DNA of 64,000 bases. It comes from an uncultured Saccharospirillaceae bacterium. Lineage in GTDB: Bacteria > Pseudomonadota > Gammaproteobacteria > Pseudomonadales > Natronospirillaceae. The stretch's first letter is position 1, and each line of letters begins with the position of its first letter. The stretch lies in contig CAJXZL010000003.1 in assembly GCA_913063165.1 (NCBI GenBank), positions 1-64,000 of the forward strand, read 5' to 3'. Positions 1-6,380 of the stretch are shown piece by piece. Both the position numbers and the translations under genes were made by a program. The notes beneath the pieces were generated by a model that ran no database searches, was not told the origin of the DNA, and was given only the letters and a program-made list of their open reading frames with translations.

Positions 1-1035
1 TGGTAGGCCGGTCAGATAGCTCCGTGCGGTCAAAAATGCCAAGAGCTCGAGTTGCTCAAAAACAGACAACATGGCCGAGGCCCGCGCCAGTAGTTGTGCA
101 GCGCCCCCATCTGAAATCACAGCAACTGACGGCATGCCCTTATCTGCTAATGCCTGTATGACCCCTTCTAGGCTGTCATCGGCATAGAAATAATAGGCGG
201 TTTTCAGGGTGTCTGGGCCATCGAGCAACACCCGTCCCTCAATACCCACACGCCAAAAATCCCGTGCAGGGTCTGGTTGGTACCATCGGACTGGCGACGC
301 TTCTCTGCCCAGTGTGAAGGCGATGCCTGCAGCATCACAGCAGGTTTGCAATAGCCTGAGGTCGTCTTGAACCAACCGCCACCCCACCAAAATGTCAGGG
401 TCCCACTGTGCGATGGTCTGCAAAAAGGCACTGAGCAGTGCGGTAGGGGTGTCAAACACCTGGTCATCTGGTTGTTCGCTGTGATGGGAAGCTACCACCC
501 CGTTCCAATGCTGATCGCCGCATGCCAATGCGATGCCTCGCAGCTGCGGCTGGCTTGACGTGCGCCAACCCATCGCGCTGACAGCGATAGCGGCCACCTT
601 AAAATGGGGTGTGACCTGAAACGGTCGCACAATGGTTTTTTGACCCTGTTGACGCCATTGCAGTCCTGCCCTGATCGAGCGTTCCATGAGGTAACGTTCA
701 GTCACGACGACATCGTCTTCCCACAGGGTAATACCAAACCGCTTGAGGATCTTAATGCATACATATAGGCCGGCCTGTTGGTCACAATAAAGACCTGCCA
801 TCGGTTTGTGCTGGAAGTTCCGCAGTTGCAGCGGTTTAATCCACCAGTTAACGCCATTACCCATGAGGCATTTTTGTGCTGCGGCCACATCCTGCTGTGC
901 CAGAAAACAGACCGATGGCTCGCCCTCAATGACCAGCTTACTCGGACCAGATGCGGTGTTGAGCCACAATACCACTGCCTGCCCAGTTGGCATGGTCTCA
1001 GCATGACGTGTCAAAATCGTCCCTTCGCAGATCAT
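1..1035 (-). CDS. polB: DNA polymerase II (family B), N-terminal part, truncated by window edge; proofreading site degenerate
   Basis: The first 345 residues of a family-B DNA polymerase resembling Escherichia coli Pol II, which restarts and bypasses damaged templates. The N-terminus (GTILTRHAETMPTGQ) and the segments RYLMERSI, WDPDILVGW and FTLGRE match the Pol II N-terminal and exonuclease domains. The polymerase domain lies outside the window. The 3'-5' exonuclease residues look lost. Where Pol II has the Exo I motif DIET there is AVSA (residues 151-154). In Exo II (WRLVQDD, 219-225) the Asn and Phe are replaced. The Exo III Tyr and Asp are absent near 303-311, and about 20 residues before them are missing. 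The start ATG at 1035 gives the expected N-terminus and follows a weak AAGTGAG. The frame is open to the window edge, so it is not visibly a pseudogene. Identity is confident; loss of proofreading is inferred from an alignment by eye. Confidence 0.9.
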   Translation of the reverse strand, partial: MICEGTILTRHAETMPTGQAVVLWLNTASGPSKLVIEGEPSVCFLAQQDVAAAQKCLMGNGVNWWIKPLQLRNFQHKPMAGLYCDQQAGLYVCIKILKRFGITLWEDDVVVTERYLMERSIRAGLQWRQQGQKTIVRPFQVTPHFKVAAIAVSAMGWRTSSQPQLRGIALACGDQHWNGVVASHHSEQPDDQVFDTPTALLSAFLQTIAQWDPDILVGWRLVQDDLRLLQTCCDAAGIAFTLGREASPVRWYQPDPARDFWRVGIEGRVLLDGPDTLKTAYYFYADDSLEGVIQALADKGMPSVAVISDGGAAQLLARASAMLSVFEQLELLAFLTARSYLTGLP

Positions 1036-1082: not shown

Positions 1083-1162
1083 CACTTTCTTTCATGATGG
1101 CGGCAACGGTTTGGCCTGATTATGGTACATTTAATCTAGCGAACATCATTGCAGGGGGCACG

Positions 1163-1963
1163 ATGTATTTACTGGGTAAAAAGTCGGAAAATTCGAGCAC
1201 GCTATTGTTGCGTATCAAAATGCTAACTGAGTATCTTTTGGCCGACATTCCCGAGCCTCAAAGCCGGTTAAACGTCAATCAAGTGGATGATTTGTATGAG
1301 CAATACAAATTGGACGCTGTCTATGTGTTGCGTGAAGGGACATTGATCGGCAATTTTGACGGCAACCCTGCCGTGGTATACGAAGCAGGAGACATTGTCG
1401 GTTTAAGTCAGTGCTATCAACTGCCCAGCCCGGTGCTAGCCTCTGATACGCCTGTGATATTAGACCGCTATGAAGCCACCCACTTCCTGAGGTTTGTGAC
1501 AGAGTCTAAGGATAAAAATGCCGTGTGGGCAAGTTACCTGATTACCCTCAATGCCGCCATTATCAATGCCTACGGGGAATTGGTTCGGGCACGTACGCAG
1601 CCCCACACAGGCTTTATTAGCTATAACAAGGGTGACACCATTATCGAAGCTGGCACCGAAGCGAAGGATGTCTACACGGTCATTAGTGGCAGTGCGGAGG
1701 CCTTTGTTGACGGGGTTAAAGTGGGCGATATCCTACAAGATGAAATTTTTGGCGCGATGGCGGTATTCACCAACAGTAAGCGGTCTGCAACGGTCATTGC
1801 TGCAGAGCAATGTACAATTTTAGCGGTACCCAGAGATGAGTTTATCTCGGTGATCAATACCCATCCAGAAACGACCTTGGTACTCATTGAAAACATGGCA
1901 CGCTGTATCAACGACCTCAATGCACGGGTATCAGACGCCGATATGGCTGCACCGATCATATAA
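1163..1963 (+). CDS. Cyclic nucleotide-binding (CNB) domain protein
   Basis: A 266-residue soluble protein. Residues about 150-258 form a cNMP-binding-like beta-barrel: YNKGDTIIEAGTEAKDVYTV, VISGSAEAFVDG, then GEIFGAMAVF-type and RSATVIA segments. The N-terminal half looks like a second, degenerate barrel (VYVLREGTLIGNF, YEAGDIVGLSQ). No DNA-binding helix-turn-helix is visible, so it is not a standard Crp/Fnr regulator; it may be a ligand sensor or scaffold. The start at 1163 has GGGGG five bases upstream; an in-frame ATG at 1094 has no such site. It is divergent from polB and convergent with radA. Whether it binds cAMP, c-di-GMP or another ligand cannot be told from sequence. Confidence 0.75.
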   Translation: MYLLGKKSENSSTLLLRIKMLTEYLLADIPEPQSRLNVNQVDDLYEQYKLDAVYVLREGTLIGNFDGNPAVVYEAGDIVGLSQCYQLPSPVLASDTPVILDRYEATHFLRFVTESKDKNAVWASYLITLNAAIINAYGELVRARTQPHTGFISYNKGDTIIEAGTEAKDVYTVISGSAEAFVDGVKVGDILQDEIFGAMAVFTNSKRSATVIAAEQCTILAVPRDEFISVINTHPETTLVLIENMARCINDLNARVSDADMAAPII

Positions 1964-1981: not shown

Positions 1982-3349
1982 CTACCAGTCTTGGCAGGCC
2001 TCTAATGCTTGCTGCAATGTCTCAATAGCCACCACTGTCACACCACTGATCGCTGCCTTTGGGGCATTGGCTCGTGGCAGGATTATCCGCTTAAACCCAT
2101 GTTTGGACGCTTCACGGCAACGCTCTTGACCATTGGGGACAGGACGAATTTCTCCCGACAAACCCACTTCACCGAATACGGCAACGTCATGGGGAATCGG
2201 TCGGTTACGCAGGCTAGACACAATCGCCAACAGCGTAGCCAAATCGGCTGCAGTCTCTGACACCCGCACACCACCCACAATATTGAGAAAAACGTCTTGG
2301 TCACCGGTAAAAATACCGCCGTGACGGTTCAATACGGCCAACAGCATGGCCAGTCGATTGCCGTCATACCCTACTGCCACGCGACGTGGGTTTCCCAAGG
2401 CACTGTCATCGACCAAGGCTTGCAACTCCACCAATAGGGGGCGGGTGCCTTCCCAAATAACCGTCACAAGTGTGCCGGGAGATGGCGTATCGCCACGGTT
2501 TAAAAAAATTGAACTTGGGTTTTTGACTTCTTTCATGCCGGTATCCAACATGGCAAATACACCCAATTCATTAACCGCGCCAAATCGGTTTTTGATGCCG
2601 CGCAGGGTTCTAAATCGGCTGTCACCAGATGACTCAAGCATAATCGAACAATCAATCATGTGTTCTAGCACCTTGGGACCGGCCAACGAGCCATCTTTGG
2701 TGACATGGCCCACCAGAAATACTGCAGTTCCAGATTGCTTGGCGAAACGGGTCAGCCATGCCGCCGATTCACGCACCTGAGACACGGAGCCCGGTGCCGA
2801 ATCAACGTCGGCAACGTGCATCACTTGAATGGAGTCAACCACCATGATTTTTGGCATGACGGTTTCTGCAATCTGACAAATGGTTTCAATGTTGGTTTCA
2901 GATAACATTTTTAACTGACCGGTCGGTAAGCCCAATCGGTTAGCCCGCAAACCCACTTGCTGTAAAGATTCCTCTCCTGTCACATACAAGGCGCTTACTT
3001 GCTCGGCCATCAGGCACATGGTTTGCAGCAACAGGGTACTCTTACCCGCACCCGGGTTGCCGCCAATCAGCACCACCGATCCGCGCACCAAGCCGCCACC
3101 CAATACCCGATCAAATTCCTGTATGCCCGTGCTAAAGCGCACCTGGTCCGACAAATCTACTTCGGCCAATGACTGCACTTGAGCGGCGGTTTGGCCGGTA
3201 AAGCCCCCGCGTTGTTTGCCACGACTACCGGCTGATTCTCGAAATTCTTTGAGGGTATTCCAACTGTGACAAGACAAGCATTGTCCCTGCCATTTGCTGT
3301 AGTCCGCGCCACAGTCAGTGCACACAAATGACACCTTTGCTTTGGCCAT
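1982..3349 (-). CDS. radA: DNA repair protein RadA (Sms)
   Basis: RadA is a RecA-related DnaB-like helicase that drives branch migration during recombination. All hallmarks are present in 455 residues. There is an N-terminal C4 zinc finger (CTDCGADYSKW, then CLSC), a Walker A (GGNPGAGKSTLL) near residue 96, a Walker B (IMVVDSIQ) and the RadA-specific KNRFG motif followed by ELGVF. The Lon-protease-like C-terminal domain ends the protein. The length matches the family. The ATG at 3349 lies two bases after the stop of the FAH-family gene, so the two are probably co-transcribed and translationally coupled. Confidence 0.97.
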   Translation of the reverse strand: MAKAKVSFVCTDCGADYSKWQGQCLSCHSWNTLKEFRESAGSRGKQRGGFTGQTAAQVQSLAEVDLSDQVRFSTGIQEFDRVLGGGLVRGSVVLIGGNPGAGKSTLLLQTMCLMAEQVSALYVTGEESLQQVGLRANRLGLPTGQLKMLSETNIETICQIAETVMPKIMVVDSIQVMHVADVDSAPGSVSQVRESAAWLTRFAKQSGTAVFLVGHVTKDGSLAGPKVLEHMIDCSIMLESSGDSRFRTLRGIKNRFGAVNELGVFAMLDTGMKEVKNPSSIFLNRGDTPSPGTLVTVIWEGTRPLLVELQALVDDSALGNPRRVAVGYDGNRLAMLLAVLNRHGGIFTGDQDVFLNIVGGVRVSETAADLATLLAIVSSLRNRPIPHDVAVFGEVGLSGEIRPVPNGQERCREASKHGFKRIILPRANAPKAAISGVTVVAIETLQQALEACQDW

Positions 3350-4730: not shown

Positions 4731-6380
4731 TTACCTGGCTTTATTAGCCAATCCTGCGCTGTTTCCCGTTGCGGTATACAGACTATAAAACTGTACCTGT
4801 TGCGGCTGCACATTAACCAGGATGGACTGGGTTATCACGCCGATCCCCCCGCGCGTGCGGGTGGTAATGTCTAATCGCTGCTGTCCGATAGGCAATCTCA
4901 ACCGAACCATGTTGACTTCTTTGGGGAGCGTCAGCCATGACCGGGTATCGGCCTGTGCGCCTAAAGACGCGCCCAATTGTGCGATTGAACCAAATAATTT
5001 CGCGCCGTCTGACACATTCTCGCCTTGCGTCCCTTGGTACAGGGCTTCGGCCAACATCTGTTGCGCCAATTCTCGAGCAAAGGCCAAATAGAAATCACGC
5101 ACGGCATGGTCAGCATGGTCTTCCATCGCTTTGCGCGCAATAGACAATCCCATGGGCATTGCCGCGGTACCGCCCGCCCATCCCACCTGGGTCTCAGTAT
5201 CGATGCTGTAATCTCTAGAGCGGTAATAGGCAATGGGCACTCTAAACCCTTTCAATATGGCTGTCAGCATTAAGGATTCAGACCGAATACGTTCTGGCTG
5301 CTGGGTTCTCACCGTTACTGACGTCCGCCGATAATCCTTGGCATGCTCTTTGCCACTGGCGCTTCGTGCCCAGTAACCACGCTTCTTTGGACCACCAATG
5401 GTACTCTGAAACCAGATCTGCTGTTCTTGTTCACGGCCGTCGGATGCATACTGGGGAGAATAGGTGAATTCTTGCGTTAGGCCTTGAAAGCCCACAAAAA
5501 TATTCATTTCGTGTTGTTCGGGCACCAAGCCTGCCAATTGCAGCAACACCACATCACCCATGCCATCGACAGCCTTTGGCTCAGGCAGCCACGATTGCAT
5601 GGCGGCGGCAGACCCCCATGAGTGGTCATACCCCATGTTATATCCGGTGAGTGCCTGTTGCGATGCGATGCGCGCATCGTCTGTTTCTCCCAACATTTCG
5701 TAGACCAATGCGGTCATCCAGTCGAGTAGGGGAATCGCACTGGGTGGCACAGGAGGTAATGCATCCACGGCCATCAGATCCGCAACCAAAGCCGTCACCC
5801 CACTCTGGCCATCGGCATCTATGGCTTGCTCGTCTTCCGCTCGCTCTAGCGCCAAGCGTATACGGCGCGCTTCCACACGTGCGTCGCGTAAGAATTGCTC
5901 CCGCGTTTGTGTGCTATCAGTCTGTGTGGCCAGATTCAGGTAGTTGATGATTTTGATAAAACTCACCATGGCCTGTTCAAAGTCATTACCGCGATAAAGG
6001 TTGTTGCGCGGACTCGAGACCACTGATTTGAGTTGGTCGACCACAGGGGTTCTAAATAAGGGATCCATTAAACCATAGGCGGTCTCTAACTGGACATTTG
6101 AGCCGACAAAGTCGCCTTGAAGGTGCTTGATCATCCCCCGTTCTAAATAATACAACACGCGGTCGGCGCCGGTCGGTGACAGGGCCTTGTCCAGATGATC
6201 GCTGGCCGCTTGCCACCGTTGCGTCTCGACATCTTGGCGCACTGCTTGGATACCATTGCCATAGGTGGCGCAACCCGTAAGGCCAAAACCCACCAACAAC
6301 AACGCAGCCGCGCGCCACCAAGCCAGTGGGCTATTGTGGAATCGCAGTGCGTAACGCCATGGCTGGTTTAGATAAGTCAC
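4731..6380 (-). CDS. COG3014-family lipoprotein with helical repeats
   Basis: A 549-residue predicted lipoprotein. A hydrophobic segment after WWRAA ends in the lipobox LTGC near residue 36. The following region looks like TPR-type helical repeats (RWQAASDHLDKAL, YYLERGMIKHLQGDFVGSN), matching the uncharacterised COG3014 family that travels with lpoB. The start codon is GTG at 6380; no in-frame ATG lies closer to the signal peptide. It sits 27 bases upstream of lpoB and 20 bases downstream of the unknown exported protein, suggesting one transcript. Function is unknown; the context points to the cell envelope or peptidoglycan synthesis. Confidence 0.75.
   Translation of the reverse strand: MTYLNQPWRYALRFHNSPLAWWRAAALLLVGFGLTGCATYGNGIQAVRQDVETQRWQAASDHLDKALSPTGADRVLYYLERGMIKHLQGDFVGSNVQLETAYGLMDPLFRTPVVDQLKSVVSSPRNNLYRGNDFEQAMVSFIKIINYLNLATQTDSTQTREQFLRDARVEARRIRLALERAEDEQAIDADGQSGVTALVADLMAVDALPPVPPSAIPLLDWMTALVYEMLGETDDARIASQQALTGYNMGYDHSWGSAAAMQSWLPEPKAVDGMGDVVLLQLAGLVPEQHEMNIFVGFQGLTQEFTYSPQYASDGREQEQQIWFQSTIGGPKKRGYWARSASGKEHAKDYRRTSVTVRTQQPERIRSESLMLTAILKGFRVPIAYYRSRDYSIDTETQVGWAGGTAAMPMGLSIARKAMEDHADHAVRDFYLAFARELAQQMLAEALYQGTQGENVSDGAKLFGSIAQLGASLGAQADTRSWLTLPKEVNMVRLRLPIGQQRLDITTRTRGGIGVITQSILVNVQPQQVQFYSLYTATGNSAGLANKAR

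Follow-up and report, generated by a model that had tools for sequence, protein, structure and literature searches.

DNA polymerase II (Pol II) is a bypass polymerase of bacteria with a built-in proofreader. According to a survey of more than 3,000 bacterial genomes, Pol II orthologs (PolB group G1) conserve both the exonuclease and the polymerase active sites (PMC12926913). An inactivated exonuclease is typical of G2/PolB2 (PMC12926913; PMC7544198), and in archaeal PolB2 and bacterial G2 (Dpo2) Exo I is not conserved and Exo III is missing (PMC7544198). Pol zeta is another B-family polymerase with an inactivated exonuclease, with a role in lesion extension (PMC7544198). The effect of wild-type Pol II is mostly antimutagenic (PMC2680738). 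The exo-minus Pol II of E. coli leaves mutational signatures in vivo, and its loss of proofreading acts synergistically with the corresponding loss in Pol III (PMC11253446).

The stretch of DNA analyzed here, referred to as the window, spans 64 kb and is the start of contig C3 (89,184 bases) in a 2.55-Mb, 112-contig Saccharospirillaceae assembly that is 98.1% complete. A reading frame on the minus strand begins with ATG, stays open for 345 codons, and is cut off at position 1 of the window, which is also the contig edge. An earlier note on this DNA had identified the frame as Pol II and as intact over 345 codons, and both points are borne out: the frame is open throughout, its product matches E. 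coli Pol II (3k57) at E 3.4e-35, and the NCBIfam Pol II models match it at E 2.5e-54. The N-terminal and insertion domains that characterize group G1 are both present (PF21474 and PF22587). The features of the polB frame and its neighbors are as follows.

1-1035, minus strand: polB (DNA polymerase II), first 345 codons, assigned by Pol II profile and structure-sequence matches; the 3' half lies beyond the contig edge
598-1035, minus strand: N-terminal domain including the Pol II insertion domain (residues 1-146), conserved as usual; PF21474 and PF22587 pass their cut-offs
1-597, minus strand: remainder of the polB frame; the exonuclease domain model PF03104 is below cut-off
574-585, minus strand: Exo I position, AVSA (residues 151-154) in place of D-I-E-T by alignment to relatives
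361-384, minus strand: Exo II position, GWRLVQDD (residues 218-225) in place of GWNxxxFD; Asn to Arg, invariant Phe to Asp, catalytic Asp225 kept
58-138, minus strand: Exo III region (residues 300-326); Tyr and Asp of YNxxD lost, with a deletion of about 13 residues; a helix is still predicted at 313-328
1094-1963, plus strand: Crp-like cyclic-nucleotide-binding (cNMP) gene, divergent from polB; conserved polB neighbor and rate control
1982-3349, minus strand: radA; conserved synteny and rate control

Three of the four metal-ligand acids of the exonuclease and the catalytic Tyr are lost in the alignments, and the Exo II Asp alone remains. The conserved DEDDy 3'-5' exonuclease active site of group G1 is accordingly not found in the window polB. 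The earlier claim that every exonuclease motif is altered stands for Exo I, for the Phe of Exo II, and for the YNxxD of Exo III, and fails for the catalytic Asp of Exo II, which is kept. The loss of the Exo II Asn had also been read as damage to the motif; this position varies naturally among relatives (S, A, H, T), so the change from Phe to Asp is alone diagnostic in Exo II. The deletion reported before Exo III is present, located before or through the motif, with a size of about 13 residues in the alignments instead of about 20. Displaced acids, which would have spoken against a dead site, are unlikely as Exo I ligands because there is no acidic residue at positions 131-173 around Exo I. A local double frameshift with compensating shifts at the exonuclease motifs was rejected, as no other reading frame restores them. 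Sequence evidence gives good support to a Pol II whose proofreading site is dead but which is otherwise under constraint.

The survey of relatives covered the order, other Gammaproteobacteria, and Betaproteobacteria. All 136 relatives carry the Exo I Asp and Glu, the Exo II Asp, and YN..D, save one fragment that does not cover Exo I. About 18 further loci, picked partly for matches that were broken around the exonuclease region, are also intact save one fragment. The overall number of about 150 relatives is approximate, since a few loci are the identical sequence in two collections and two fragments are unscorable at Exo I; none of the catalytic losses of the window polB occurs in any of them where the region is present. 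The nearest relative, the polB of genome G002 (39% identity), is an exo-intact sister. AVSA turned up in no relative whose locus was read, be it from the order search (few of its weaker hits included), the viral scan, or the GTDB contig scans, and a GTDB contig scan with the window protein alone gave no close relative. With all of these relatives exo-intact and none of them a congener, the non-proofreading Pol II lineage proposed earlier is not upheld, and the predicted exo-dead Pol II is a singleton from one genome with no clade demonstrated. The literature searched, which omits most subscription journals, contained no account of a naturally exo-dead Pol II ortholog.

The loss is concentrated in the motifs. 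Among 41 near-invariant positions, the window protein keeps 9 of 9 in the N-terminal domain, 16 of 19 in the exonuclease domain outside the motifs, and 3 of 13 in the motifs. With the assignment of positions to motif blocks made in view of the alignment, by the usual Exo I-III definitions, 10 of 13 are lost in the motifs versus 3 of 28 elsewhere (Fisher p 5.5e-5). This imbalance, together with the fact that no relative shares the catalytic loss, makes the motif loss more than chance. Pairwise identities also reveal an exonuclease domain far more diverged than the N-terminal domain predicts (mean residual -0.155; next lowest taxon -0.065). The window lineage accounts for 0.41 of the three-branch total in the N-terminal domain, 0.38 in the non-motif exonuclease region, and 0.54 in the whole exonuclease domain, and the control shares are 0.45 for radA, 0.46 for the cNMP gene, and 0.41 for a lipoprotein gene; the bootstrap intervals are wide and overlapping, and "no sign of acceleration" is all that these shares can say. 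Outside the motifs, the window polB thus appears to evolve no faster than its neighbors, which argues against long decay. The intact frame had already been offered as an argument against decay, and the rate test strengthens it, with non-motif branch shares like those of neighboring genes. The codon-position G+C of the window polB matches that of the neighboring genes as well.

In a Pol II tree built without the motif blocks and with no G2 sequence among its taxa, the window protein is sister to the G002 polB (98/89), followed by that of G009 (99/95) and then the family (99/97). G002 and G009 have the window's arrangement, with polB flanked by the divergent cNMP gene and radA, and G014 shares the cNMP gene; no match to the cNMP gene was found in G013. 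Both phylogenetic placement and synteny therefore group the window gene with the Pol II orthologs of group G1. By these sequence comparisons, the window polB is a product of vertical descent at the ancestral locus, and it is a Pol II ortholog by descent in the form of a putatively exonuclease-dead variant, not a standard Pol II. In the window, G002, G009, and G014, polB and the cNMP gene form a divergent pair, suggesting a possible functional or regulatory link. No LexA-like box was detected upstream of polB in the window or upstream of the genes of four relatives.

The AlphaFold model of the window polB fragment (35-row alignment) reaches a pLDDT of 91.6 and a pTM of 0.87, and Foldseek ranks E. 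coli Pol II structures at the top for the predicted fold (TM 0.89 on query). The alignment included exo-intact relatives, and the model speaks for compatibility with the fold, not for the dead site, which is read from the residues themselves. The exonuclease fold is predicted to be intact as a scaffold.

The polymerase half was searched for with the PF00136 profile, which detected E. coli as a control, and with the C-terminal half of the sister protein, and neither gave a match anywhere in the gene's own 98%-complete assembly. The polymerase motifs A, B, and C and the beta-clamp binding motif that also characterize group G1 belong to this missing part. In G014, a convergent gene with the motif KxYTWTDxxGxxxFGDRPP lies directly downstream of polB, with mrcB further on. 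In the window's genome, mrcB is located on contig C86 and is adjoined by a homolog of this convergent gene.

G000:C86 (L183) 5248-5700: homolog of the convergent polB neighbor of G014, running off the end of C86

Judged by synteny with this one relative, C3:1 and C86:5702 probably flank a gap. A plausible reading is that the missing half sits in about 1.4 kb that did not assemble, the length expected with a full-length polB; this is below the smallest contig sampled (C112, 2,367 bases, in an assembly whose contigs are numbered by length), as in a length-filtered bin. Because synteny places C3:1 and the C86 end around the gap, the arrangement suggests that an assembly gap is likelier than a truncated polB gene. 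Both presumed flanking contig ends stop within normal coding sequence. No repeat or second copy was found at the polB contig edge, and the first 20 bases of C3 have no match in C86.

No polB match (E 0.001) was obtained in 5 of the 22 family genomes (G004, G006, G007, G012, and G020), and matches occur in 172 of 391 order genomes. In this family, then, the gene has often either gone missing or diverged too far for the search to match it. In G008, polB (L033, G008:C263 about 63713-64501) has a frameshift between an exo-intact N-terminal half, in a 430-aa frame, and the polymerase half with DTDS, which lies in another frame; a lexA-like gene lies in the same locus. Given the absences and this frameshift, polB seems dispensable in the family and may be on its way out. 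The window's genome keeps two Y-family genes, one DinB-like and the other matching the ImuB-like proteins of relatives in size, so Pol II need not be the sole bypass enzyme. The idea of Pol II as a replacement for lost translesion polymerases is not supported, since these Y-family genes are present.

Collectively, we consider it fairly probable that the Pol II of this Saccharospirillaceae bacterium was inherited vertically, that its 3'-5' proofreading disappeared along its own branch, and that selection then maintained it for what it could still do. Exo I and Exo III have lost their metal ligands, the exonuclease fold is predicted to stay as a scaffold, and the sequence outside the motifs is about as constrained as that of neighboring genes; the unseen C-terminal half would still polymerize. 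Provided that the polymerase half is intact, such a non-editing Pol II would extend primer ends that are mismatched or carry damage, rather than idle at them or excise them, a logic that may be likened to that of eukaryotic Pol zeta, archaeal PolB2, and laboratory exo-minus Pol II. Whether evolution has here made a bacterial Pol II into a polymerase devoted to lesion extension without proofreading, in convergence with Pol zeta and PolB2, we regard as a nearly balanced question, and we propose it tentatively by analogy with those enzymes. Counting against a retained, non-editing Pol II are its occurrence in a single genome, the dispensability of polB in the family, the missing LexA-like box, and the overlapping bootstrap intervals of the rate test. 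Gene decay would give a different account, in which Pol II is being lost, the exonuclease site went first, and the polymerase half is broken or deleted. The missing polymerase-domain match in a nearly complete assembly, the patchy occurrence of polB in the family and the order, and the frameshifted G008 gene are all in keeping with such decay. Against it, the 345 codons contain no stop, the branch length outside the motifs resembles that of neighboring genes, the presumed flanking contig ends lie in normal coding sequence, and the polB end holds no repeat. Uniform neutral drift, moreover, would not keep 25 of 28 non-motif positions and lose most of the motif positions, and we consider decay rather unlikely.

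The constrained parts are the N-terminal domain and the exonuclease scaffold, which would also suit a Pol II that has lost both activities and is retained in a structural or recruiting role, as the C-terminal half of Pol epsilon is; no such case is described among the bacterial Pol II orthologs of the survey (PMC12926913), and we judge this account improbable. An exonuclease that still works with displaced or replacement ligands could draw on the kept Asp225 and on the new Asp224 beside it. This is very doubtful when the region around Exo I offers no acid, the Asp and Tyr of Exo III are gone, and no relative uses such a set. An artefact of assembly or sequencing, for instance a chimera or a set of compensating indels, might produce a contig that ends inside polB, as C3 does. 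Relatives align without a break up to the last codon, however, no alternative frame brings the motifs back, codon-position G+C is like that of the neighbors, and synteny and phylogeny agree, leaving an artefact scarcely credible.

If an inherited Pol II has indeed had its proofreader erased with the rest constrained, editing would be separable from the selected role of Pol II, and the gene would be a natural counterpart to the exo-minus laboratory mutants for asking whether the loss of proofreading favors lesion bypass. E. coli Pol II (group G1) has the same domain order as the window protein, with the N-terminal and insertion domains and the exonuclease fold, and the window protein is nested among the Pol II orthologs; E. 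coli Pol II and all relatives checked have the full catalytic set, whereas the window polB has only the Exo II Asp. Archaeal PolB2 and bacterial G2 (Dpo2) are matched by the window polB in their inactivated Exo I and missing Exo III, a likeness in state only. The window polB does not belong to the PolB2/G2 clade: it groups with the Saccharospirillaceae Pol II proteins in the tree, which holds no G2 taxa, and is matched by the Pol II models. Eukaryotic Pol zeta is likewise a B-family polymerase with an inactivated exonuclease, in an independent lineage and with partner subunits that are not in evidence for the window polB. The laboratory exo-minus mutants of E. coli Pol II have the same class of catalytic loss, which in the window polB is natural, extends over multiple sites, and is accompanied by a deletion.
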